Source: a virus. Taken from it: 23,778 bases of DNA. The stretch is taken from positions 1 to 23,778 of the IMG/VR virus record IMGVR_UViG_3300045256_000121; one strand, given 5' to 3'. Positions within the stretch are counted from its first letter, which is position 1; each line of letters starts with the position of its first letter. Under the pieces are notes generated by a model. The model searched no databases. It saw nothing but the letters and a program-made list of their open reading frames with translations, and was not told where the DNA came from. The position numbers and the translations under genes were made by a program. Shown piece after piece: positions 995 to 23,712 of the stretch.

Positions 995-2547
995 TGCAAG
1001 CAGGATGTCCGGTAGTAGTCGTACCTTACGATCAGAGTAGGTTAATCAAAAATCCGAATTTGGTGTCGATCAATTACACCAACCAGGATTTCTGGTCTAT
1101 GAAGGCACGCCTTGTTGATTACATCAAAGAAAAGTTTGCGGATGACTTCAACGACTTCGTTGAGTCTTCGATTGCCATCATGTTGATCGAAAACTGGGCG
1201 TATATTGCCGACACGCTTTCTTTCAAGATTGACCAGATTGCAAATGAGATTTTTATTGATACTGTTAGTGAAGCCGACAACGCTTTTCGGTTATCGCAGC
1301 TTGTCGGCTTCAAACCGACTCCTCCGATTGCGGCTCGAAGTTTATGGTCTGCCACTTCCAACCAAGTTCTCGAAACTGACCTGATTATTGACGTGCCAGT
1401 GTCCATTGACATTACGACCGAGGCTGGTTCTCGTACCATCGAACTTTTCGCAGCCGATAACAACAACAATCCGATCTTCAATGAGCCGATTATTATTCCG
1501 GCTGGTAATTTCATTAACACATCCATTGTGGGTGTTGAGGGGCAGACTCGTGAGCAGTTTGAGCAGGGGGACGGGTCGATTAACCAGTTTTATCAGTTGG
1601 CCTATGGTCCGGTGATTTGGAACTCGATCCGGGTGTACGTTGACGGCGTTCCGTGGGAGCAGGTAGACTACTTCACAGATTCTCAGCCCCGGCGTGAGTT
1701 CCGGGTGGAATACGACCCTGATTACAACGCATTCATTTTGTTTGGGAACAACCGTGCGGGCATGATCCCGTCTAACAACTCTGATATTCGAATTCTTTAC
1801 CGGACGGGCGGTGGTGTGGCCGGTAACATCGTGACCGGATCGGTGGAATTGCAGAGAAACTTTATATTGTCGGGGTTCGATTTCCGAGTCCCCGTGACGT
1901 TCCGAAACTATACTAAGGGTGAGTTCGGATACGCCGGTGACGGCATCGAGGACATTAAGAGAAAACTTCCGCCATATCTTCGAACTCAGAACCGCTGTGT
2001 GACCGGGGATGATTATCAGACGTTCGCTAACCAGTTTGTGACGCCGTACAACGGACAGGTTGGCAAGGCGACGGCGGTGTTAAGAAACTACGGGTGTGCG
2101 GCGAACATTGTTGACATTTATATCCTGGCTCGGTCGGAAGAAGACCAACTGGTTGAGGCGGGGAACGAGCTTAAGCGTGCGTTGGGTGACGCCCTTAATG
2201 AAGTCAAGATGTTTACTGATTATGTCTGTATAAAAGACGGGTCGGTCATCGAAGTTGATATACAAATCGACCTGACGATGGACAAGTTCTATAAAAAATT
2301 TGAGGACGAGTTTAAGCAGCGGGTGACGAACCGGCTGGTGATGTTCTTCTCACTGAACAATTGGGACTATGGTCAATCACTAAAGTCTATTGATATCGTG
2401 AGAGAAGTGTCCGATATTAAAGAAGTCAGGACGGCGGACGTTAACCTCGTGACAGATAACGAAGACAACTCTGGGCAGTTGGTGGTTGCTCATTTTTATC
2501 AGATTATTCGTCCGCAGGTGGTCGAAATTAACTTTATCTACGAGTAA
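994..2547 (+). CDS. Baseplate wedge protein, gp6 / baseplate J family
   Basis: This 517-aa protein is a baseplate J/gp6-like wedge subunit. The N-terminal motif INYTNQDFWSMKARLVDYI (about residues 26-44) is typical of T4-like gp6 proteins. Near residues 310-350 the J-family pattern is seen: G.DGIEDIKRKLPPYLRTQNR followed by VTGDDYQTFANQF. The C-terminal third holds the usual alternating helix-strand part ('IDIQIDLTMDKFY', 'QSLKSIDIVREVSDIKEV'). In the virion gp6-like subunits dimerise to form the ring that controls baseplate opening. The start codon overlaps the stop of the gp25-like gene (TAATG), and the gene ends with a double stop (TAATAATGG) just before the next start at 2550. Confidence 0.92.
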   Translation: MQAGCPVVVVPYDQSRLIKNPNLVSINYTNQDFWSMKARLVDYIKEKFADDFNDFVESSIAIMLIENWAYIADTLSFKIDQIANEIFIDTVSEADNAFRLSQLVGFKPTPPIAARSLWSATSNQVLETDLIIDVPVSIDITTEAGSRTIELFAADNNNNPIFNEPIIIPAGNFINTSIVGVEGQTREQFEQGDGSINQFYQLAYGPVIWNSIRVYVDGVPWEQVDYFTDSQPRREFRVEYDPDYNAFILFGNNRAGMIPSNNSDIRILYRTGGGVAGNIVTGSVELQRNFILSGFDFRVPVTFRNYTKGEFGYAGDGIEDIKRKLPPYLRTQNRCVTGDDYQTFANQFVTPYNGQVGKATAVLRNYGCAANIVDIYILARSEEDQLVEAGNELKRALGDALNEVKMFTDYVCIKDGSVIEVDIQIDLTMDKFYKKFEDEFKQRVTNRLVMFFSLNNWDYGQSLKSIDIVREVSDIKEVRTADVNLVTDNEDNSGQLVVAHFYQIIRPQVVEINFIYE

Positions 2548-2549
2548 TA

Positions 2550-5500
2550 ATGGCTGAGAAGAAATACAATGATAACCCGAGAGTAACTGACACGGTTGTT
2601 TTCGACATTACGACACCCGACGCCTCGGGCTGTCTAACTACTGACCCTTATAAGGTGGATCGGTTAGTAGTCTATTACGTCGAGCGTAACTTTCTTGGCA
2701 ACAATTTTGGCGAATACGAAAAGGTAAAATACAACGACACGTTGCTCGCTCAGACTCTAGCGGCTGAGCAGTTGGCGTGTGCCTCACCTACCCCGGCGAA
2801 CATTTTTGCCGCTCAGCAGTTAAGAAATGAATTGGAGTCGAAAGCCCAACGGAACCAGTTTTTCTTCAAGGACGCCGTGCCGGTAAAAACTGTTGGGACT
2901 TCACTTAACCCGGCTTGGCTTTCGTCCGACGAGGACAATTCACAAATTGAACATGTTACTGAAGATGAGGATGGGAACCCTCAGTTCGGTCGGTTCCGGT
3001 TCAAGTGGATGCCCAACGGTTCTGTGCGGGAGGGTGACTATTTTATCTGTTGGACATGGACACCACTGCCAGCCGGTGACAGCCTTTCCGCACACGAGTC
3101 ATTTTCGATGTTGGGCGACCCTCGGGCTGTCACCACCATCCCGTCCCACATCACGCCGGAAGAGAAATATGAAGTTTTGTTAGAACGCTACCTGCCAGAA
3201 GTGTACAAGAATTATCTGGCGGACAAAGACATCACGCCCGAGACTACCTATAAGCTCAATCGGGCGGTAGCAAAGGGCTTTAAGTATCTGGAAGATTTGG
3301 CTAACCAGGTCATCGACCTTTATGACGCCAATGCCCTTCATGAGAGTCTGTTAGTCTATTTGTCGAACCTGTTCAGCCTCAAGTTGAAGTCCGACGACCC
3401 GACCCTGTGGCGGCGTCAGATCAAAAATGCGATCACCCTGTTTAAGAAGAAGGGGACAATTCGGGGTTTGCAGGAGGCGTTCGCTCAGGCTGGTATGAAG
3501 CTTGAAAAACTGACTCAACTCTGGCAAGTGGTTTCGCAATACACTTGGGTGGAGTCGTTCCGGGTGAAAGACAGTCCGGTATTCACTCTGAGTAAAAGGG
3601 CGTTGCCTGTTGACCCAGACAATTTTGGCTTATGGGTTCGTCGCCAGGGCGACGGGGTGTACCAAGAGGTTTTGAGCGATTGTGTCATTTTCGAAGATAC
3701 CGATTGTAATTTTGCCACCCGGATGATTTGGGTCGGGGACGAACTTTCGTCCAACCCAATCAGCCTGTTTGAAGGCGATATTATCAAGATTCTGTACAAG
3801 TACAAAGAACTGCCTATTGGACAGCAGCCTATTGAGAACTATATCCGATCTCTGGATTTGGCCGACGAGCGGGACGAGGCTGATCAGGAGTTCCCGCCGA
3901 AGAATTGGAATGTCCGCGTAATTGAAGAAGATGACCCGTTGTTTGGCGTGGTTGTTCCTGTGCGGCACCCGTTCCATGAGGCGTTGGTGTTCGGTTGGGT
4001 TCGTACAGAGTTCCCGTACTCAGAAAATGTTTATAACATGGAAGAATATAACGGTTCGACCCGAGAGACCGGCGACCCGTGTTTGATTGACAAGGCGTTT
4101 ACCGACCCGTGCGGGTCGTGTATCAGCAGTAAATTTAACATTGACGTATCGGTGGAATCGTTGAGCGATGACCGGTTGAGCGAAGTCCGTGACATCATTC
4201 GGGAATACACACCTTTCCACGCTCAGGTTCACCGAATAAACTTTTATGGTTCGGTTAACGAGTTCGTGCCGCCGCCGGTAGAAAATATTGAATGTCTTGT
4301 TACCTATCGTGTTACGGATATTGTGCTGTCGGGCAACTCGAACCTGTTCTTCACCCGCATCATGCCGGACGGGTGGAATCTGTCCACGCTCGGTGTGGCT
4401 CGTGATGCTCTGGCACAAAACACGCTTGTCGTCAGTGCAACGACGGGTATCGGGTATAACCCGAGAATTGCGGTGGTGACGCCGAATGTGAATCTTCAGA
4501 AGATCGGTTTGGACTTAGCTAACCATGTCTTCGAGGTACTTTCGCCTTCGATCAACTCTGGGGCTTACACGATTAGCAATCCGATTATGGAGACGGCGAC
4601 GGTAAATGGTGGCGTGAGTGAGCCGGTCAACGAGTCCATGTTCACGTTCCATTTGTCTAATATCACTTATGAAAATAGTCAGACTATTATAACACAGGAC
4701 GACAAATTTAGTTTTACGTCTGAATCGGTTGATTTTGTATCACTTGGCGTCAAGACGCTTTGGGACGTGGAAAACACACCGGATTACGCTGGCGGGTCAT
4801 GGAAGGTTTCAATTCCCGCTTACGACGCCACGCCGTATGAAATTAAAGAAATTGTCGAAGGTGTCCTGATACTGGCCGACCCAGGACGAACACTTCCGAC
4901 TACCGTAACTTCGGGCATTAATTTTGAGTTACTAGACGACACGGGCGTAACGCGGGGCAGTGCGATAGACGGCAACCTGAGTGTTGAGAGGTTCGGCCGG
5001 GTGGATTTGAACGATAACGCCATTTTGGATATTCGAGAATTCGTGCGTGTTAATGATAAATTCATATACAACAATTTCGAGTATCGGGTGAGCGGACTAG
5101 ACGAGCAGAAATTTATAATTGAAGACTATGTTGATGGTGATGTTAGTGGGGCGACGGTTGAGATTAGGCGTCGTCTGGTTGAGAACGAGATTGGGTTTTT
5201 CGGATACGCCGGGTTGAAATTGCAAACGGTGGTTGATTATGAAACATCGTTAGGCATCTTGAACGGCGAGAACGGGACGGAAAACGAAGACGAGATCACC
5301 GATAACAGCAAGTTTAAAGAGAACTTTTTAGTGAAGATCGGTGACGACTATTACAAGATTGTTGCCATTAACGCCACGGACATCACGCTGGACGGACCGT
5401 CGAATGACTGGATGACCTTGGGTGCCGGCGGCACGCTTGTCAACTTCTCGATTCACCACTTTGTTGAGTCGCCTGTGGCTACTTCTTTTCTATTATTCGA

Positions 5501-8022: not shown

Positions 8023-8172
8023 ATGCGATATAAATTTCTTCGAAATGGACAAACTGCCCATGAAATGTGGGGAAGTAAGGACCGTGGGTTCGTGAATTAA
8101 TTCGCCCTTGAAGTGGCTAAAAAAGCGACCGAGGCTGAAACAGGAAACTGCTGCCCTTTAGCGGTGGGGTAG
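8023..8172 (+). pseudogene. Decayed short frame ending in an IS605-type right end
   Basis: An ATG frame (MRYKFLRNGQTAHEM...) meets TAA at 8098-8100, then continues in the same frame (FALEVAKKATEAETGN) to TAG at 8170-8172, ending CCPLAVG. This ending resembles that of the TnpB remnant at 22176 (PLSLAAG) because both run through the same right-end sequence. The first 25 codons may be an unrelated small phage gene. No TnpB catalytic motif remains, so the assignment rests on the end sequence only. Confidence 0.3.
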
Positions 8173-8177
8173 TTCAC
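8150..8177 (+). mobile_element. IS200/IS605-type right-end-like sequence, copy A
   Basis: CCCTTTAGCGGTGGGGTAGT then TCACA closely matches the right end of the TnpB remnant (22158-22182, TCTTTAGCGGCGGGGTAGTT then CACA). CTGCT (8151-8155 region) can pair with AGCGG around a CCCTTT loop. Such hairpins at the right end of IS605-family elements also form the 3' part of the TnpB guide RNA. No left end or transposase is seen nearby, so this is a solo end or a strongly decayed copy. Confidence 0.55.
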
Positions 8178-10695: not shown

Positions 10696-12980
10696 TGACG
10701 ATCCCCACAGCGAGTAACTACCCGAATGCGTTTGACACGAACACTAACCTGTTCGAAGTCCACGACGGTTTACGGGTTCGTCTTGCCGAAGATTATAACC
10801 CTGGCGATACCGAGATCACGGTTGAAGGCGATATTCTTATTCTGTCCCGGTTCCCGCCGACGGGTATCATTACGCTTACCGAGCAGTGCAGCGATATCGA
10901 CAAGCGAGCCATATCGTTTTTTTATTCGAACATCGATACAGCCACTGGCATTATCAGCGGACTTGAGCTGTTACCAACTTTCGTAGATGTCCCAAAGCTC
11001 AAGCGTATTACGAATGTCACTCAAAACGTTATGGCTCAGCATCATAATGCTTTGAAAGACGCTTTGATCGCTATCGAAGAATTTATTGGCGTCAAAGGCA
11101 CTACTGACAACTTGCCGTTCGGTCCTACTATGGAAGGTCGGGTCAACTTCTTACGCAAAGTTGTACTTACCCCTCGGGCGTGGTTTACCGCCGACAAGCG
11201 GACGGGCATTGTCCCGCTTGACATCGAGTTCAAAGATTTGAGCTTTCGCTTGGGCGCCGACGGTACGTCCGGGCCGGTGACGATCTCCTGGGACTTCGGA
11301 GACAACACTACCAGTAACATCTCGTTCATCAGTGTCATCAGTGAAACCTCCGTGGTTCCAGAGGGCGCCGATAACGTTTTGGTTTATGATATGGACGGCG
11401 GAACTATCAAGAAGACTTATCTGCGACCGGGTATTTTTGACGTTACGCTTACCGTTTCTAACAATTTCGGTACGGATTCGTGTACTTTCCCTGCCTTCAT
11501 TAAAGCCCGTGTGAAGGCCCCCGATTCGGCGATTATCAAGTTTCAGAATGTCGAAGGGCAAACGATCATTCCTGGTACGCCGGTCAACGGACCATACACC
11601 GTAAACCCACGGGTGCGGGCACCTATTAACACCATCATTAATTTGTTCATTCCGGACGGCGAGAACCTGTCTACCCCGGGCATCAGTTTTGGCGGGGAAC
11701 CACTTGACGGTAATGGTTCCCCAATTGACCCGATTGTGACTTACACTTGGAGTCTGGGGGACGACTTGAACCACCCGAACGCTTCCAGTACGAAGGCGTC
11801 TTACTCCATTGGCGGGTTGTACGACTTGAAACTGCGGGTGGATACAAACTTTGGGGCTTATCGAATTACTACCTACGAGAACTGCATCGACGTGGTGGAG
11901 AACATAAACCTTTGGTTGTGGACATTCGACACTGGCGTGACCGTCCGGGCTTACGAGTACGGCTTAATTAGTGAAACTTTCAAGCTCAACAGTAACTCGT
12001 CACAAATCGTGCTGCGGGATGACAGCTTCTTGAACAATGTGCCTTCAGCCTCACAACAGAAACGTGAATTCAAAAGAAATACCGGCTTCGCCCCTCGTGG
12101 TACGTTGGAATCGGGGCGTGGCGGTTCGGTGTTGCTGTATTGGGCTTCCGGTCGGTCGGAATACGACCCGATTGGTGCTGAAGAAATTCGATTTGTCGAA
12201 TACACCGGGTTTATCGACACTTACATTACCCGACCCGAGATCAGTCGCCCGTGGAATTGGGCAACTTTCAATTCCGCCGGAATCACGTTCTTTGTATTTG
12301 GCTCCCCGACAACGCCCCCGATGCCTTCGACTTCACCAACCAACCCGACGAAAACCGTTCTGAATTTGACGTTCTTGACACCCACTAACGAAACGTTGAC
12401 AGTGAGTAACTTTAGTAACGGTGCCCAAGAGTTGTTGAGTAACGTGGCTTCTTTTGACAACAGTGGCAACAGTATTTACGGTAACTTTAGTGTATATCGG
12501 ACGGCATGGAAAGACAACACGGGTTACATTACCAGAAACTCGGGTATCGGACCTTTCTTCCGCATCAAGAGTTTTTATCGGACGGAAGGGACTGTAGGCA
12601 ACCCGTTCCAGACGATCCGTAAGTTGACGGATATGCAGGGCCCGACCAAGACCGAAGGGCAGTTGTCAAACTTGAGTCAGGGCGTATACTTTTTTAACAA
12701 CTCCGGGTCCATTTCGGCGTTCAGTGATTCGACGCAGACGTGGAGCACAGGCGGTCCTGGGTTCAATTCCGTGGCGTATCGGGCGTTACAAGATAACGGC
12801 GTTTCGGGATACGATAATATATCGAATACGCTGCTGTGTACCTCTGACGGGGACAAGCGGGCGTATCTGAGCTTCGACTACAGTGAGAACGTGTTCTTGA
12901 AGTTCTCTGAAACAGAACTTACATTTACCGCCCTGGGCACAAGACCGAGTGGCGAACAATGGATTATGGGCGTATATTAA
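10695..12980 (+). CDS. Large PKD-domain fibre-like protein, paralogue 2
   Basis: The 761-aa protein repeats the plan of its upstream neighbour: an N-terminal domain starting YPNAFDTNTNLFEV and closing at residues 114-133 (AQHHNALKDALIAIEEFIG), a PKD domain with SWDFGDNTT (198-206) and PGIFDVTLTVSNNFG, and a second, looser PKD unit (TYTWSLGDD, GGLYDLKLRVDTNFG). The last roughly 360 residues form a separate beta-rich domain, rich in Ser, Thr, Asn, Gly and aromatic residues, with repeated short strands (GNFSVYRTAW, GQLSNLSQGVYFFNNSG, RAYLSFDYSENVFL); this could be a propeller or a receptor-binding tip. Its start overlaps the previous stop (TAATG). A receptor-binding fibre is a reasonable inference. 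Confidence 0.8.
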   Translation: MTIPTASNYPNAFDTNTNLFEVHDGLRVRLAEDYNPGDTEITVEGDILILSRFPPTGIITLTEQCSDIDKRAISFFYSNIDTATGIISGLELLPTFVDVPKLKRITNVTQNVMAQHHNALKDALIAIEEFIGVKGTTDNLPFGPTMEGRVNFLRKVVLTPRAWFTADKRTGIVPLDIEFKDLSFRLGADGTSGPVTISWDFGDNTTSNISFISVISETSVVPEGADNVLVYDMDGGTIKKTYLRPGIFDVTLTVSNNFGTDSCTFPAFIKARVKAPDSAIIKFQNVEGQTIIPGTPVNGPYTVNPRVRAPINTIINLFIPDGENLSTPGISFGGEPLDGNGSPIDPIVTYTWSLGDDLNHPNASSTKASYSIGGLYDLKLRVDTNFGAYRITTYENCIDVVENINLWLWTFDTGVTVRAYEYGLISETFKLNSNSSQIVLRDDSFLNNVPSASQQKREFKRNTGFAPRGTLESGRGGSVLLYWASGRSEYDPIGAEEIRFVEYTGFIDTYITRPEISRPWNWATFNSAGITFFVFGSPTTPPMPSTSPTNPTKTVLNLTFLTPTNETLTVSNFSNGAQELLSNVASFDNSGNSIYGNFSVYRTAWKDNTGYITRNSGIGPFFRIKSFYRTEGTVGNPFQTIRKLTDMQGPTKTEGQLSNLSQGVYFFNNSGSISAFSDSTQTWSTGGPGFNSVAYRALQDNGVSGYDNISNTLLCTSDGDKRAYLSFDYSENVFLKFSETELTFTALGTRPSGEQWIMGVY

Positions 12981-13040: not shown

Positions 13041-14912
13041 ATGCCATTTCCGCCTATTCCTGCTTACCCGAATGCGGTTGACTCGGACTACACGTTGTTC
13101 CTGGTGTATAACACCACGGAAACGAAGTTGTGCGCAGACAATCCCGCCTGGGCGGAAACTATTGAAATCCTGCCCGTGGCGTCTGACAAGCCGGAAATCT
13201 GGGCCGACAACGGGTTTGGGAACATTGACGGTGAGTTGTTCTATTACGACTCTGTGGGTAAGGACTCTAACGGCAAGGTAAACAAGCTCAAGGGCTGTGC
13301 TCGTGCCTTGTCTGGTAAATCAAAGTTCAACCCCCGTGGCACTTGGGTTCGGTCTTATGTCATTGCCGAACATCATAATCAGTTGGTTGATGCCATCTTG
13401 AAAGTTGAAAACTTTGTAGGGTTTAACTTCGACCCCCGTCAAGAAACTCTCGACTGGCGCATCCGCAACCTTCAGTCGTTAGCGATCATTTTTGATGATT
13501 ACGCCTGTCCGGATGTTAATTTTACGTTCAACATCGTAGAGAACGATAAGGAAACTGGTATCCTTGCCAACTACGTTGTCGAACTCACACAGCCGACAAC
13601 TGCCAATTCGTTCCGATTAGATTTTGGCGATGGGGAGTTCACGACGACGGCTCTGTCCGGTAGCCATCGCTACGCTCTTAACGCCACGATTGACCCTGTT
13701 GTTACGCTGTCTAACGACAAGTGCCAGATCATCGTGACGCCAGTTGAACGTGAGAACCCGAGTGAGCCGCCTGCCGTTATTGAAGACGTGTTCGACATTC
13801 CGATTCCGGCTGTCCCGGACGTGCCTGACTTTACGTTCGTGCCATGTGAGGTTCCCGAACCGAACATTAACCTACCGCCGTTAGTTTTCCCGTGTCTGTC
13901 GCTAGAAGGTCAGGTCGGTCCGTTGCCGTCGGTCATCATCGGACCGGACATTCAGTTGGTATCGAACGTGGTGATTGAAGGCCCGGACAACCCGGTCCAG
14001 ATTCTTCACAGCACGGTTACGATTGAGGGTGGGTTCAGTCTGCCGTCGATCATTTTCGTGGACGTTCCGCCGACGATTGTTATTGACCCACCAATCCCGC
14101 CGACTATTGTTATCGTGGCTCAGTCTAGTATTGCGATGGGCATTGATTACGGTGAGTTGCCGAAGTTCGAGATCGACTGGAGCAACATGCCGGAAATGAC
14201 CATGCAGATGACAATGGTTCGCCCGGTTGTAAAGCCGCAGTTGATGGCTCAGGGCGTTCAGAACGAGTTCGGTGAAGAATTCGCCGACTTGTTTCAGGCG
14301 TCCGAACAACTGAAGGTTGAATATGAAACCGTTGGCATACCTGAAGAAATTCGAGTCATCATGCCGGACGAAATCCCGGACATTAAGGTTGACGCCACGG
14401 ACGTGCCAAAAACGATAAAACTCGTTACCGAAGATGTTAACCTTCCAGACATTATCCGCATCTTCGGCCCGGATAAGCCGTTGCCTGAAGTGATTAGTAT
14501 TCACGGGCCGGAAGTCCCTTTGCCAGACCAAATCGAGTTGGTAAACCGTGACGTTCCTCGCCAGATTGATTTGGTGAACAAGGACGTGCCGCATGAGATC
14601 GTGTTGCGAACAGAGACACCAATCCCCGAGAAGATTTTGGTCGAGATGGTTCAGCCCATTCCGAGTAAGATCATCTTGGACGCATCGGGCGTACCGACCT
14701 CATTGCCGGTCACTGGTATCCCGGAATCCCTGACGGTTGTGGGCTTCCCGGAAGGCATCCCGATCCTTTTCCCGAAGGAAGAAGATATGCCGAAGATTGA
14801 GCTGGTTTACAAGGGCGCCCCACTCGAACTGAAGATTACAATGGATAAGATGATCGCAGCGGCGGAAGGCGAAGACGCACAATGCGTCCGAATCATACCC
14901 TGTGTGAAGTGA
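13041..14912 (+). CDS. Fibre-like protein with proline-punctuated beta repeats, paralogue 3
   Basis: The 623-aa protein has the shared N-terminal domain (YPNAVDSDYTLF at 9-20; IAEHHNQLVDAILKVENFVG at 108-127) and a degenerate PKD unit with LDFGDGEF near residue 192. The rest is unusual: from about residue 240 it is rich in Pro, Ile and Val, and from about 430 it becomes a regular array of 10-14 residue units of the form [ILV]P..I.[LIV]...[DG]., for example LPEVISIHGPEVP, LPDQIELVNRD, VPRQIDLVNKD, VPHEIVLRTETP, IPEKILVEMVQP. This fits an extended beta-solenoid or fibrous shaft. GGAG lies 10 bases before the ATG. Two terminators follow, so this closes the fibre operon. Confidence 0.8.
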   Translation: MPFPPIPAYPNAVDSDYTLFLVYNTTETKLCADNPAWAETIEILPVASDKPEIWADNGFGNIDGELFYYDSVGKDSNGKVNKLKGCARALSGKSKFNPRGTWVRSYVIAEHHNQLVDAILKVENFVGFNFDPRQETLDWRIRNLQSLAIIFDDYACPDVNFTFNIVENDKETGILANYVVELTQPTTANSFRLDFGDGEFTTTALSGSHRYALNATIDPVVTLSNDKCQIIVTPVERENPSEPPAVIEDVFDIPIPAVPDVPDFTFVPCEVPEPNINLPPLVFPCLSLEGQVGPLPSVIIGPDIQLVSNVVIEGPDNPVQILHSTVTIEGGFSLPSIIFVDVPPTIVIDPPIPPTIVIVAQSSIAMGIDYGELPKFEIDWSNMPEMTMQMTMVRPVVKPQLMAQGVQNEFGEEFADLFQASEQLKVEYETVGIPEEIRVIMPDEIPDIKVDATDVPKTIKLVTEDVNLPDIIRIFGPDKPLPEVISIHGPEVPLPDQIELVNRDVPRQIDLVNKDVPHEIVLRTETPIPEKILVEMVQPIPSKIILDASGVPTSLPVTGIPESLTVVGFPEGIPILFPKEEDMPKIELVYKGAPLELKITMDKMIAAAEGEDAQCVRIIPCVK

Positions 14913-14913
14913 A

Positions 14914-14948
14914 CTGTCACTCCCCTAAATGGCAGTGACTTTCTTTCT
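14914..14948 (+). terminator. Terminator after the fibre operon
   Basis: GTCACT (14916-14921) pairs with AGTGAC (14934-14939) two bases after the stop codon, followed by TTTCTTTCT. The stem is short, so termination may be partial. Confidence 0.6.
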
Positions 14949-14991
14949 CAATCTCGGTCACCTCTTTAGCCGCCTCAAGAGTGTTTTTCCC

Positions 14992-19262: not shown

Positions 19263-19270
19263 CTTTTATA

Positions 19271-19386
19271 CCATAGGCGGCGAGAAAACCACTACTTTTC
19301 TCTTAATGAGAAAAGTTAGCCCTGCGTAAGGAACGAACAACCAAACAGGGCTAACCTCTTTAGGGTAGTGGGATGAGAGCCGCCAT
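19271..19386 (+). repeat. Cloverleaf-like structured repeat, copy 1
   Basis: Four nested stems are perfect: GGCGGC (19276-19281)/GCCGCC (19379-19384) closes; CCACTAC (19289-19295)/GTAGTGG (19365-19371) is next; two arms stand inside, CTTTTCTC/GAGAAAAG (19295-19315, loop TTAAT) and GTTAGCCCTG/CAGGGCTAAC (19315-19355). Copy 2 at 21071 keeps the arms with changes mostly in loops. Both copies sit at the left of a segment that ends in the same right-end sequence, so this is probably the left end of an IS605-like element, or an RNA it carries. Confidence 0.75.
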
Positions 19387-19667
19387 CTAACTTCCATCGA
19401 GAACACGCTAGAACACATTGCAGAAGACCGACCGCAAGTTGCCAAGAAGTTAAATGATAACAAAAAACTTAGTAAAGATTTGCCGAACGGTTGTAAGAAG
19501 TAGTGTTGTTGAAATTGTTAATGAACGAACCAGCTTGATTATAACTCATCTAGGAACATTTTAGTTTATGAGATGATAATATTAATCTCTGGAATAGAGT
19601 GGGTAGCCGTTTGTTTTGGCGTAAGACCTGTTCAGGGCGGGCTGTTGATTAGAACTAAAACCATGTC

Positions 19668-19690
19668 GTCTTTAGCGGCGGGGCAGTTGA
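19668..19690 (+). mobile_element. IS605-type right-end sequence, copy B
   Basis: GTCTTTAGCGGCGGGG (19668-19683) is identical to the right end of the TnpB remnant at 22158-22173, followed by CAGTTGAC against TAGTTCAC. The upstream half of the hairpin seen in copy C is not kept here (CCATGTC), so the stem is weak. The 25-bp tandem duplication begins at its edge. Confidence 0.6.
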
Positions 19691-19738
19691 CAAGGGGTGG
19701 TAATATGTCTATCGACAAGGGGTGGTAATATGTCTATC
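19689..19738 (+). repeat. 25-bp exact tandem duplication with ribosome-site/ATG pairs
   Basis: A 25-base unit beginning GACAAGGGGTGG and ending GTCTATC occurs twice in a row (19689-19713, 19714-19738), followed by GAC of a third start. Each unit holds AAGGGG and an ATG (19705, 19730). It lies directly at the edge of right-end copy B and just upstream of the second GT9 gene. Confidence 0.9.
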
Positions 19739-19768
19739 GACTTAAATTGGTCAGAGGAAGTATTTTAA
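19730..19768 (+). CDS. 12-codon leader reading frame before the GT9 gene
   Basis: ATG at 19730 opens MSIDLNWSEEVF and stops at TAA 19766-19768, which shares its last A with the ATG of the glycosyltransferase gene. AAGGGG lies 9 bases before the ATG. The TAATG join could couple translation of the leader and the enzyme. The upstream duplicate ATG (19705) gives only MSIDKGW. It may be a chance product of the duplication. Confidence 0.4.
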   Translation: MSIDLNWSEEVF

Positions 19769-20748
19769 TGAAGATTGTGACTCGACGGGTGGAGAATCGC
19801 AAGCCGGATAAGTTACAAAGAATCTTATCCCTGGGAGAGTTTGCTGAAAAGCGGAACCAAATCCTGATTCAGCGAAACGTTGGTGGGTTAGGTGACATCT
19901 TCATGCACCGTATGATGTTTGAGGATTTCAAGCGGGTGATGCCGGATGCCGAAATACACTTTGCCTGTCCGCGGAACTACCATGATGCCGTGATCGACCA
20001 CCCATTCATCGATAAGGTACTGGATTCGGCGACGGTGGATCGGTTTCAGTACATCATATCGTATAACACAACCACCGCCTGTGGGCGATACGAGCTTCGC
20101 ATGTTTCCCTATTCCGGTTTAAACCGAAGTGACATTTGGGCACAGCATTGTGGTGTTTACCTGACAAATCACAATATGCACATCCGCATGACGCCCGAGG
20201 AGGTTGCCTGGGGCAAGGCAAAGTTGGAGGAAAACCGTGACCGACCAGGACCGATTGTGCTAATGTCGCCCGTCTCCTCAATGGAGAACAAGAACCTGCT
20301 ATACCATCAGACCGAGGGTACGGTAAAGGGGTTGTGGGAACGGGGTAATTGCGTAGTCGGATTACATTACAACCCGCTTCAACATTTCACGAAATTGAAC
20401 GCACCGTGTCTCTACAATCTTTCACTGAGACAATGGATGGGTGTAATTGCGGCTGCGGATTACGTCGTGAGTGTGGACACGGCAGCCTTTCACTGTGCGG
20501 GTGGTATGGGCAAACCGTTGACTGGTATCTTTACTTTTGCCGACGGAAAAGTGTACGGCCGGTATTATAAGGGGTTTGAGTTGGTCCAAAAACACAGAGA
20601 CGACGGATGTTGGGATTGCGGTCCATGTTACGATTGGGGACGGTGTACTAAAACGAAAGCCAACCCGAAGCCATGCCTGACCGAGATTACTGTGGATATG
20701 ATTCTTAAGGCAATAGACAAAATGTTTGCTAAATACTCATCTAAATAA
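19768..20748 (+). CDS. Glycosyltransferase family 9 (heptosyltransferase-type), second gene
   Basis: The 326-aa protein starts at the ATG at 19768, with GAGGAA about 9 bases upstream; a TTG at 19747 is in frame but has no site. The N-terminal GT-B half has IQRNVGGLGDIFMHRMMFED ('GglGD.l...') and MPDAEIHFACPRNY. The C-terminal half has GPIVLMSPVSSMENKNLLYH, AAADYVVSVDTAAFHCAGGM and GKPLTGIFTFADGK, the GT9 'D....H.a.a.g.P....fg' block, then the Cys pattern CWDCGPC...GRC...PCLTEI. It differs greatly from the GT9 at 16629-17492, so they probably act on different steps or acceptors of one glycan. Confidence 0.85.
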   Translation: MKIVTRRVENRKPDKLQRILSLGEFAEKRNQILIQRNVGGLGDIFMHRMMFEDFKRVMPDAEIHFACPRNYHDAVIDHPFIDKVLDSATVDRFQYIISYNTTTACGRYELRMFPYSGLNRSDIWAQHCGVYLTNHNMHIRMTPEEVAWGKAKLEENRDRPGPIVLMSPVSSMENKNLLYHQTEGTVKGLWERGNCVVGLHYNPLQHFTKLNAPCLYNLSLRQWMGVIAAADYVVSVDTAAFHCAGGMGKPLTGIFTFADGKVYGRYYKGFELVQKHRDDGCWDCGPCYDWGRCTKTKANPKPCLTEITVDMILKAIDKMFAKYSSK

Positions 20749-20751
20749 GAC

Positions 20752-20994
20752 ATGCCGCAGCGAATTACACCCGTGAAAGTTATGTCCGTGAGCCAGGACG
20801 GCGAGTGCCACCTGACGATCACTTTGGAGTTGAATATCAATTTAACAGCAAACGGCGAGATCGGTGCGTCCCTTCAGGCTCAGAGCGAGAAGCCTTCGAA
20901 ATCTCGGCCAATTCAAGAAGACGACGATGTTGAACTGACTATTCCCGATTTTGTTTCGGGTATGAAGCTGGACTTTGGTAAACAAGTAGAGTGA
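20752..20994 (+). CDS. Small hypothetical protein
   Basis: This 80-aa acidic protein starts three bases after the GT9 stop, so it is likely on the same transcript, although no good ribosome site precedes its ATG. It has a beta-strand pair (ECHLTITLELNINLTANGEI), a polar linker (AQSEKPSKSRPIQEDDDVEL) and a short hydrophobic end (TIPDFVSGMKLDFG). I do not recognise it. Confidence 0.6.
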   Translation: MPQRITPVKVMSVSQDGECHLTITLELNINLTANGEIGASLQAQSEKPSKSRPIQEDDDVELTIPDFVSGMKLDFGKQVE

Positions 20995-21037
20995 AAGTGA
21001 TCGGCATCAATAATTTAGTGAATTTTAAGTAATACTA

Positions 21038-21066
21038 TTGACAGTCAATTGATATTAAAGTAATAC
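21038..21066 (+). promoter_or_regulatory. Possible promoter before structured repeat copy 2
   Basis: A perfect TTGACA (21038-21043) is followed after 17 bases by TAATAC (21061-21066), a poor -10. If active, transcription would begin near the left edge of the structured repeat and produce it as RNA. Confidence 0.35.
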
Positions 21067-21070
21067 TTAT

Positions 21071-21195
21071 CCATAAGCGGTGAGAAAACCACTACTTTTC
21101 TCTGAATGAGAAAAGTTAGCCCCGTGTAGGAAGCGAGCAAAGCGAACGAAAAAACAGGGCTAACCTATTTAAGGTAGTAGGATGAGAGCCGCCAT
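21071..21195 (+). repeat. Cloverleaf-like structured repeat, copy 2
   Basis: About 125 bases match copy 1 (19271-19386): the CTTTTCTC/GAGAAAAG arm is identical apart from one loop base, and the GTTAGCCC/GGGCTAAC arm is kept while its loop differs in length and sequence. The outer stem is slightly worn (AGCGGT with GCCGCC; CCACTAC with GTAGTAG). It is the left part of the element holding the RHH gene and TnpB remnant. Confidence 0.75.
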
Positions 21196-21310
21196 AATAA
21201 AAATTACCTAAAAACCGAAGCTAATTTGGCTTCCATTCGTCTAATTAAAAGATACAAAAAAACAGATAATTTTTCGATGAGATTTCTTTCTGCATTACTA
21301 TGAAATGTGT

Positions 21311-21466
21311 ATGACCAAGAAAAACAAAGCAGAAAAGGTGTTGTCAGTCAGAGTTCCTGAAAAATTGTTTGAGAAATTCAAGCAACTCTGTGATGAAAAT
21401 TACAAAACAATGTCTGATACGCTAAGAGACTTCATCCGGGATTATGCCAAACGAGGCAATAAGTAA
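21311..21466 (+). CDS. Ribbon-helix-helix (CopG/Arc-type) small protein of the IS element
   Basis: The 51-aa protein reads MTKKNKAEKVLSVRVPEKLF, then EKFKQLCDENYKTMSDTLRD and FIRDYAKRGNK. This is the ribbon-helix-helix plan: a short basic strand (KVLSVRVPE), helix A (KLFEKFKQLCDEN), a turn (YKTMSD) and helix B (TLRDFIRDYAKR). Such proteins bind DNA as dimers and often control the genes next to them; small RHH genes are found directly before tnpB in some IS605-type elements. The frame is intact, unlike tnpB. The ATG at 21305 is an alternative start; no clear ribosome site is seen. Its stop lies within the first codons of the tnpB remnant. Confidence 0.7.
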   Translation: MTKKNKAEKVLSVRVPEKLFEKFKQLCDENYKTMSDTLRDFIRDYAKRGNK

Positions 21467-22176
21467 AACACCTGTATTTCTACAAATACAGATTGAACCC
21501 AACACCAAGATAACAAGTGCTATTGAACAAGCACTTCGGTTGTATTCGCTACCTTTATAATCATTTCCTCGCTCAAAGAATCGCTGTATACAAATAAACA
21601 TAAAATTATTACGACAATGCAATAGAAATACCAAAACTCAAGAAAGACTTGCCTTGGCTCAACGAAGTGGGAAGCCAATCCTTACAATACGTAATCAAAT
21701 AATTACAAAATGGATATGATAATTTTTTTCGTAAATGCAAACAGAAAGTCAAGGGCAAAAAAGGTTTTCCTCGATATAAGTCCAAACACGGCAAACAATC
21801 ATTCAAGGTAATGCAAAATGTAAGACTGATTGAAGGCAATATGATAATACCTAATTTTTTAGAAGGTATCTCAATTGTTCAACACCGAGAGTTAGAAGGT
21901 AAGATTAGATTTGCTGCTGTCGGGAAGAACAAGGCAGGACAATAATTACTGTTGAGAAGGAAATTTCTTGTTTGCTTAAGTCTAGAAAAACTGTCGGTGT
22001 GGATTTGCTGGACTTCACATAATCGTGATGAAAATGCTAGTGTCAATATATACAATGAAGGTTTTAGAATCAGAACTTTCGGAACGAGAGGGATAACCGA
22101 CTGCCCCGATATAAGTCCCATCAGAGATGGGTTATTAGTTGTGTCGGAAGCTCCGCTGTCTTTAGCGGCGGGGTAG
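21463..22176 (+). pseudogene. tnpB: TnpB (IS605 OrfB) remnant with stops, frameshifts and a core deletion
   Basis: One frame from 21463 keeps TnpB landmarks: HLYFYKYRLNPTP, LLNKHFGCIRYLYNHFLAQR, IPKLKKDLPWLNEVGSQSLQ, YDNFFRKCKQKVKGKKGFPR and YKSKHGKQSFKV, broken by TAA at 21511, 21595, 21601, 21700 and 21943. A shifted frame then gives RKTVGVDLL, the RuvC-I motif with its Asp at 22002-22004, and after another shift HNRDENASVNIYNEG, the RuvC-III motif with Asp at 22027-22029. Only 25 bases separate these two Asp codons, so the RuvC-II Glu region and zinc finger are deleted. The protein cannot be made or be an active nuclease. It ends with TAG at 22174-22176. Confidence 0.85.
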
Positions 22177-22182
22177 TTCACA
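22075..22182 (+). ncRNA. Right end / possible guide-RNA (omega RNA) scaffold, copy C
   Basis: The end of the tnpB remnant forms two hairpins: CCCATC/GATGGG (22117-22131, loop AGA) and CCGCT/AGCGG (22153-22168, loop GTCTTT), followed by CGGGGTAGTTCACA. In IS605-type elements the tnpB 3' end and right end make the guide RNA for TnpB, the guide being copied from the flank. Here the flank would be the ribosome site and start of the actin gene. Because TnpB is broken, the RNA would only work with a TnpB supplied in trans. Confidence 0.5.
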
Positions 22183-22186
22183 TTAA

Positions 22187-22191
22187 AGGAG
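22187..22191 (+). promoter_or_regulatory. Ribosome binding site of the actin-like gene
   Basis: AGGAG (22187-22191) lies one base before an ATG at 22193 and 7 bases before the ATG at 22199, so the second ATG is the real start. The site is only about 5-10 bases from the right end of the IS element. Confidence 0.75.
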
Positions 22192-22198
22192 AATGATT

Positions 22199-23209
22199 AT
22201 GCCAGTAGGGTTTGACGCTGGGACTTACAACTTGGTCTGCTGCCGCCGTAACGATAAAGGGGAATTCCTTTACCGCCGGGAGGTAAACGCCTTCTTGGAA
22301 ATGCCTCTCGAAAACAAGTTCGTTTACAACATGATGAAGAAGGCAGGCGTGCCACTAATCCTTCGGGAAGATGTCAACGTTGCCTACGCCATCGGTGAGG
22401 CTGCTGTCGAGATGGCTTATACGATGCCGCAGATCGAGCTTCGTCGCCCGATGAAGGACGGCTGTGTCAACCCGAAAGAACGTGACGCCTTTCAAATCTT
22501 GAATATTATGGCTCATAGCCTGATTGGTGACATTTCGGAAGACAAGACGACTCTGTACTATTCCGTTCCGGCTAACGCCGTAAATACCGAGACGGACGCA
22601 GACTATCACCGCAAGATTCTTGACGCCATTTTCAAGGCTTATAAATCGAAGGACGGGTTCATCGTCAACGCACACCCGATTAACGAAGCCCTCGCTTTGA
22701 TCTACGCCGAATTGGCCAACAAGGCGTTCACGGGGATTGGTATCAGTTTCGGTGCCGGTATGGTTAACCTGTGTTACTCAATTTTCGCTGCCCCGGTGTT
22801 CCAGTTCTCGCTGGTCAATTCGGGAGACTGGATTGACAAGCAGGCCGCCAAGGCTCTCGGCGAGAGTGTGGCGTTTGTCAACAAAGAGAAAACGAAGATT
22901 GACCTGGGTAAAGAGCCGACGAACAACACCGAACGGGCTATCGGCACCCAGTACAAGCTTATGATCGAGAAGACGGTCGCCGGTATCAAGAAGGGACTGG
23001 AAGAGAGTAAGAAGGGACACACCGCTGAAGCTGTTGACGTGGTAATTGCCGGTGGCACGTCGAGTCCTCCGGGCTTCGACAGGTTATTTGAGACGGTGTT
23101 GCGGGAAGCCGAATTACCGATTAATATCGGTAAGGTTATCCGCCCTGCCGACCCGCTGTACAGTGTAGCCCGTGGTTGCCTTGTAGCTGCGGAGAATGCC
23201 AATGTTTAA
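22199..23209 (+). CDS. Actin-like ATPase (ParM/MreB superfamily)
   Basis: The 336-aa protein has the actin-fold nucleotide motifs in order: phosphate-1 VGFDAGTYNLV (residues 3-13), a connect-like PINEALALIYAELA (about 160-173), phosphate-2 GISFGAGMVNL (181-191), then SGDWIDKQAAKALGE (about 207-221) and the adenosine motif VVIAGGTSSPPGF (281-293). Length fits filament-forming ParM/Alp proteins. In phages and plasmids such proteins position or separate DNA, and in some large phages cytoskeletal proteins place the replicating genome. Its end overlaps the next gene by 8 bases, so both are coupled. The promoter is not evident; the IS end lies right upstream. Confidence 0.85.
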   Translation: MPVGFDAGTYNLVCCRRNDKGEFLYRREVNAFLEMPLENKFVYNMMKKAGVPLILREDVNVAYAIGEAAVEMAYTMPQIELRRPMKDGCVNPKERDAFQILNIMAHSLIGDISEDKTTLYYSVPANAVNTETDADYHRKILDAIFKAYKSKDGFIVNAHPINEALALIYAELANKAFTGIGISFGAGMVNLCYSIFAAPVFQFSLVNSGDWIDKQAAKALGESVAFVNKEKTKIDLGKEPTNNTERAIGTQYKLMIEKTVAGIKKGLEESKKGHTAEAVDVVIAGGTSSPPGFDRLFETVLREAELPINIGKVIRPADPLYSVARGCLVAAENANV

Positions 23210-23630: not shown

Positions 23631-23712
23631 GCGAGCCAGAAACCACTACTTCCTAGCGAAGCGATAGGTGAACTACCGTTACCCTAAAGGGTAGCGGCTT
23701 CTTGGCTCAACG
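23631..23712. repeat. Third, diverged structured element
   Basis: GAGCCA (23633-23638) pairs with TGGCTC (23703-23708). Inside stand AAACCACTACTT, shared with the other two structured repeats, a small arm CCTAGCG-AAG-CGATAGG (one mismatch) and a strong arm CCGTTACCC (23676-23684)/GGGTAGCGG (23689-23697) with loop TAAA. The plan recalls repeats at 19271 and 21071 but most bases differ, so kinship is uncertain; it could also stabilise or end the actin operon transcript. Nothing coding is seen to the window edge. Confidence 0.5.

Follow-up and report, generated by a model that had tools for sequence, protein, structure and literature searches.

Cloverleaf-like left ends of IS200/IS605 elements in a phage DNA fragment

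In the DNA stretch analyzed here (the window, a 23,778-base IMG/VR virus fragment carrying tail and baseplate genes), each of the two cloverleaf-like repeats forms the left end (LE) of a non-autonomous IS200/IS605 element; the two elements are termed E1 and E2. We regard this reading as very probable: the LEs would be recognized by the transposase TnpA, and they consist of a plain hairpin with two inserted arms and an outer stem. The ends, the boundary and insertion site, the guide rule, the autonomous relatives, the covariation and the clustering in one clade were all observed in the sequences. A preliminary description of this DNA had matched the repeats to no named family; the family is IS200/IS605. 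The mechanism is known, and the novelty is the branched structural form of the end. No earlier description of branched or cloverleaf IS605 ends was found among open-access PMC papers.

Two cloverleaf repeats in the window

The preliminary description placed two copies of a repeat at 19271-19386 and 21071-21195, and proposed an outer stem, a CCACTAC/GTAGTGG stem and two inner arms. Both copies (83% identity over 125 nt, E 1e-33) and the plan were confirmed, and a search of the 23,778-base record gave these two copies and no others. The cloverleaf is completed by a small apical hairpin, CCTCTTTAGG. The first element base is better set at 19270 in the first copy and at 21072 in the second. With RNA parameters, the copy at 19270-19386 folded at -47.1 kcal/mol (z -6.4) and the copy at 21072-21195 at -36.2 kcal/mol (z -4.3); each was more stable than all of its 200 dinucleotide shuffles. 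Folding with DNA parameters agreed with this result (z -7.0 and -2.4, respectively). The Rfam gathering search of the window gave no match, including no group I intron, and no hit was obtained in the tRNA/tmRNA search.

It had also been proposed that the loops change while the stems are spared. This is largely right for the window pair, in which 4 substitutions were counted at 58 stem positions and 7 substitutions plus indels at the 59 other positions. However, the pair alone gives no compensation, because its four stem changes are one-sided (in E2, the substitutions lie in the outer and foot stems). The compensatory changes that the preliminary description recommended looking for were seen across the wider family, as described below, and its proposal of selection on structure was upheld.

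The elements E1 and E2

All parts of E1 and E2 are on the plus strand. E1 (19270-19691) has no ORF left. Its target and left cleavage site (CL), TTAT at 19266-19269, flanks the element and was also found in relatives without E1 (CTTTTATA). The branched LE (19270-19386) is composed of the outer stem GGCGGC/GCCGCC, the foot CCACTAC/GTAGTGG, arm A (CTTTTCTC/GAGAAAAG), arm B (TTAGCCCTG/CAGGGCTAA) and the apical CCTCTTTAGG, and its guide (GL), AAAA, is at 19285-19288. The remainder (19387-19691), which lacks an ORF, retains sequence resembling the tnpB 3′ end/omega-RNA region. The right end (RE) is decayed; it terminates in GGGGCAGTTGAC and its hairpin is broken. E1 thus has the form of a PATE or MITE, which keeps both ends (here an LE and a decayed RE) and carries no transposase gene. 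A 25-nt perfect tandem duplication (GACAAGGGGTGGTAATATGTCTATC) was observed at 19689-19738, at the right edge of E1.

E2 (21072-22181) contains an intact ribbon-helix-helix (RHH, CopG-like) ORF and a broken tnpB, and is flanked by the CL TTAT at 21068-21071. Its branched LE (21072-21195, GL AAAA) follows the plan of E1. The RHH ORF (21311-21466) encodes 51 aa, and its homologue in L077 matches PF01402. The tnpB pseudogene (21463-22170) has lost its start codon and carries in-frame stops, a frameshift and an internal deletion. The identity of TnpB was established from intact homologues (tblastn, Pfam); the pseudogene shows 89% identity to the intact TnpB of L077 over a 105-aa query. The RE (22144-22181) possesses the guide (GR) GAAG, a hairpin around CTTTA and the right cleavage site (CR) TCAC at 22178-22181. 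Decay in the window elements is therefore found in the RE of E1 and the tnpB of E2.

A small RHH gene lies immediately 5′ of tnpB in the window (21311-21466) and in L077, L078, L079 and L080, and where both genes are intact, their start and stop overlap. A literature search gave no report of RHH-TnpB pairs.

A third copy had been suggested at 23631-23712. This region is not a copy: 23668-23701 is an IS605-type RE on the minus strand. It reads GAAGCCGCTACCCTTTAGGGTAACGGTAGTTCAC, and a near-identical RE is present in L080 from 1517 onwards. The RE is preceded by a tnpB-like tail that ends in KLESLSQEAATL and a stop (translation read from the sequence). It belongs to a further IS605 element running off the contig, the RE of which (23668-23705, minus strand) has GR GAAG, the hairpin CCGCTACC/GGGTAACGG and CR TCAC. 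On the plus strand, outside this RE, AGAAACCACTACTT at 23637-23652 resembles the 5′ half of an LE; this may be a piece of a further LE or due to chance. A solitary IS605-type RE remnant lies at 8137-8177 (plus strand). The sequence GAAAGTCACTGCCATTTAGGGGAGTGACAGTTCAC at 14909-14979 (minus strand) shows 72% identity over 71 nt (E 6e-4) to the RE at 8107-8177. It is probably another IS605 RE remnant, and relatives possess a longer gene there.

Relatives of the window were located via its volactin-like gene. The actin-like protein encoded at 22193-23209 matches Pfam Volactin (E 4e-67), and this phage gene has 73 relatives in IMG/VR, some of them on contigs of 245-533 kb. Volactin was apparently named for a Haloferax volcanii protein. 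L004 and L005 align to the region at about 82-85% DNA identity. They lack 20997-22208 (the E2 region), and other sequence replaces 19271-19720 (the E1 region). Thus, each cloverleaf sits in an inserted segment. L004 and L005 are not base-exact empty sites, since extra AT-rich DNA is present left of E2 and a different ORF replaces E1. A joined-flank search for empty sites gave a single match, which was a self-match.

Relatives with the same left end

Relatives of the elements were gathered from IMG/VR by scans with TnpB, the RHH protein and the motif CTTTAGGGTAGNGGGATG. A regular-expression survey gave about 30 branched LEs with a common plan, and 27 remained after near-copies were removed. The order of the parts is constant: a TTAY site, 11-15 nt with the 5′ half of the outer stem, a four-base guide, the foot CCCCTAC, arm A, arm B, the apical CTCTTTAGG hairpin, the foot GTAGnGGG and the 3′ half of the outer stem. 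The branched LE is 117-132 nt in the fullest members. Both ends are carried by 22 whole elements. Three architectures were found, namely tnpA (pointing at the LE) with tnpB, RHH with tnpB, and gene-free miniatures of 312-463 bp. The constant location left of tnpB elements, which the preliminary description expected, was borne out. L003, the lone match to AGAAAACCACTAC...GTAGTGG in viral contigs, was judged to be a chance match (a few such matches are expected by chance, and it has no outer stem and no tnpB).

One 338-bp miniature, the LE of which is branched, was found at several sites in copies that are 96-100% identical. Every copy begins exactly 3′ of TTTAT and no target duplication is seen. 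The full copies end in GTAGTTCAC, and their right flanks are unrelated. As is characteristic of IS200/IS605, these copies and the 22 whole elements are inserted 3′ of a fixed tetra- or pentanucleotide without duplication.

L182 is an apparently intact autonomous copy, with a branched LE (from about 1370), tnpA (1495-1911, minus strand), tnpB (1974-3182) and an RE (to about 3188). Its TnpA is a Y1_Tnp (PF01797) protein and matches the IS608 TnpA structures 2a6m/2vhg (E 1.6e-14). A tnpA of PF01797 is present in the autonomous relatives with the same LE (L104, L112, L120 and L182). Since tnpA is absent from the 23,778-base window record, we can only infer that E1 and E2 are mobile; the Y1/HUH TnpA that would mobilize them is represented by the gene in the autonomous relatives, not by one in the window. 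L005 is closely related to the window, and its 245-kb record contains a tnpA adjoined by a branched LE (L184). Mobilization in trans within this phage lineage is therefore plausible.

Two unusual ends were observed among the relatives. In L147, the first 73 nt of a branched LE (10994-11066) are joined straight to the final RE bases (CGGGGTAGTTCAC); this 86-nt LE/RE chimera perhaps arose by recombination between similar hairpins. In L157, a solitary LE (3359-3456, minus strand) has a 3′ tail, GCCGCCGATGGATAAA, that mirrors its start, TTTATCCATCGGCGGC. The mirrored tail carries the outer stem over the cleavage site.

Pairing of guides with cleavage sites

In IS608, the cleavage sites are not read directly by TnpA; each pairs with a guide located 5′ of a hairpin, TTAC (CL) with AAAG (GL) and TCAA (CR) with GAAT (GR) (PMC5934647). 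In the LEs of the phage family, the fourth bases of CL and GL are complementary in 30/30 cases, and none of 100,000 permutations was as good; this count overstates independence because the LE sequences are related, although several states occur. The pairs were TTAT-AAAA (19 LEs), TTAC-AAAG (8), TTAC-AACG (2) and TCAT-GAAA (1). The RE pairs also covary: TCAC-GAAG, TCAT-GAAA (L111, L134 and L086) and TGAC-CAAG (L199 and L211). Across these RE pairs, changes at base 2 and at base 4 are both accompanied by a change of the partner base. The rule is broken at position 2 in L174, where GR GAAG occurs with CR TGAC. Apart from this exception, guides pair with cleavage sites as in IS200/IS605 elements. 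Since CL lies outside the element, the pairing shows that integration is guided by the element's own end.

Branched right ends were observed in L199 and L211 (G033 87591-87708; G004 19669-19754), with the guide CAAG and the site TGAC. In the 1,573-bp element of L209, the LE and the RE both have the branched form.

Stems, arms and origin of the branched end

Arm covariation was counted by script in the 27 LEs, with the register wrong for a few of them (L079, L154 and L184). Arm A has 15 distinct stems and arm B has 19, almost all of them Watson-Crick paired, and two to five pair types occur at nearly every position. The outer stem also varies, from GGCGGC/GCCGCC to GACGCC/GGCGTC, GCGGGCA/TGCCCGT and others. 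When outer-stem halves were swapped, own partners gave 6.5 bp and swapped ones 5.5 bp, a weak contrast, both values being inflated by chance helices.

The arms were counted in this way because MAFFT put them out of register, and the covariance model R1 captured the foot pairs only. R1 matched 7/50 phage records and none of 395 Bacteroidota, 148 Geobacteraceae-phylum and 299 Paraburkholderia-phylum genomes, a contrast that is only suggestive, because the filters were stricter, the genomes were a sample and no bacterial positive control was available. Nothing convincing was obtained by blastn of the LEs against phage and plasmid records, and the RHH protein had no match in plasmids.

An IS200/IS605 left end typically, if not universally, carries one small imperfect palindrome. 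The LEs described here are branched, and the view that they are unusual for IS605 left ends stands. Because the palindrome (foot and apical loop) is still recognizable, we treat the branching as a variation and not as grounds for exclusion. The RE hairpin of L108 is CCCCTACCCTTTAGGGTAGGGG. Its LE reads CCCCTAC, arm A, arm B, CCCTTTAGGGTAGTGGG, which is the RE hairpin with both arms added at a single position in its 5′ strand. Judged by such sequence comparison, the foot and apical loop together are the plain hairpin of the RE and of the bacterial relatives. A plain 23-nt hairpin without arms, with the same guide rule, is found in the bacterial homologues L081, L083, L086 and L092, and the outer stem (AGTGCC/GGCACT) is present in the Bacteroidota homologues. 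In the TnpB tree, the 15 branched members are all on one side of a single branch (support 98/97), with L084 placed among the simple forms on the basis of a presumed LE. On this tree, the arms map to one phage-borne clade.

Discussion

Among the three roles offered in the preliminary description, that of a transposase recognition site with several arms is strongly supported, and that of an RNA acting with TnpB is unlikely. The cloverleaf marks the left boundary, adjoins the target tetranucleotide, carries a guide that covaries with it and is kept in the gene-free miniatures. By analogy with IS608, a Y1/HUH TnpA supplied in trans by an autonomous copy would bind the single-stranded LE. The guide AAAA 5′ of the foot would pair with the flanking TTAT, and GAAG would likewise pair with TCAC at the RE. 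The element would be excised as a single-stranded circle and reinserted 3′ of another TTAT or TTAC. From this analogy we infer both TnpA binding and single-strand transposition. The arms would leave the putative TnpA-binding core (foot, bulge, apical loop and continuous 3′ strand) intact. They may promote folding of the end while the DNA is single-stranded, or identify it as 'self'. Tentatively, and with some doubt, we suggest that arms and clamp form a functional multi-arm single-stranded DNA site, which aids folding in replicating phage DNA or serves as a self/non-self signal. If so, this clade has evolved an end more elaborate than that of any described IS200/IS605 element.

There is a sizeable chance, somewhat short of even, that the LE arms are functionless. 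They would have arisen once, with their complementarity kept via template switching or conversion and not by selection, and would be tolerated because TnpA contacts the foot and apical loop only. The TnpA of the branched elements is of normal size, and its end resembles that of the TnpA of the bacterial relatives with plain hairpins, so that it has no extra domain reading the arms. Arm length is also highly variable, with one short arm in L177 and short arms in L157 and L172. However, nearly every branched LE has two arms, even between members whose TnpB proteins are deeply diverged, and a GCGA-rich sequence recurs in the loop of arm B.

It is improbable that the cloverleaf acts as an RNA, either as a 5′-UTR regulator of the RHH-tnpB operon or as an RNA partner of TnpB. 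In the RHH and tnpB elements it does lie upstream of both genes on the coding strand, it folds well with RNA parameters, and G.T wobbles slightly exceed A.C on that strand (10 against 3, leaning weakly to the top strand). However, the cloverleaf is retained in the miniatures, which have no genes, and in the tnpA and tnpB elements the LE lies past the 3′ end of the LE-facing tnpA, about 530 nt from tnpB (L182); a shared RNA role with TnpB is therefore unlikely. The guide-target pairing links the cloverleaf to integration. The guide RNA of TnpB is expected at the right end, and no Rfam match was obtained; an omega RNA overlaps the tnpB 3′ end and the RE, whereas the cloverleaf is at the LE and the RE hairpin is separate.

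IStrons combine a structured 5′ RNA with IS605 ends, but it is extremely improbable that the structured part is what is left of a group I intron in such a fusion, since the window has no Rfam group I intron or group I core, 117-125 nt is below the size needed for a catalytic core, and no ORF continues on both sides of E1 or E2.

For transposition through hairpins of single-stranded DNA, the ends of IS200/IS605 elements serve as the model, and they are also the setting where TnpB, a relative of Cas12, evolved. Along the natural gradation that leads from the plain hairpin to the cloverleaf, the guide-target rule is conserved; this gradation shows where the end tolerates change, and is ready material for testing how TnpA reads structure. 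Large phages host both autonomous and miniature IS605 families.

IS608 of Helicobacter pylori shares with the phage elements a Y1/HUH TnpA, subterminal hairpins at both ends, insertion on the 3′ side of a tetranucleotide resembling TTAC, and guide-cleavage-site pairing. A preference for C right after the target is likewise seen in most LEs here. In contrast, IS608 has a single small imperfect palindrome as its LE, followed on the 3′ side by another hairpin (PMC5934647), whereas the phage LEs have two arms inside the palindrome and an outer stem enclosing guide and foot. The IS605-type elements of Bacteroidota and Geobacteraceae (L081, L083, L086 and L092) are closer in their homologous TnpB and TnpA, guide pairing and CTTTA-type loop, and the Bacteroidota members also have the outer stem; they differ in their plain 23-nt hairpin without arms. 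E1 and the 312-463 bp elements retain both ends while lacking a transposase, as do the PATE/MITE derivatives of IS200/IS605; a PATE-like form has been reported from Halanaerobium (PMC7290912). The elements studied here differ in that their LE is branched and in that they lie on phage contigs. REP sequences with TnpA-REP (RAYT) resemble the LEs in being palindromic DNA tied to a Y1-type transposase (PMC8266576). Unlike these dispersed REPs, the phage LEs have partner right ends and a precise insertion site.
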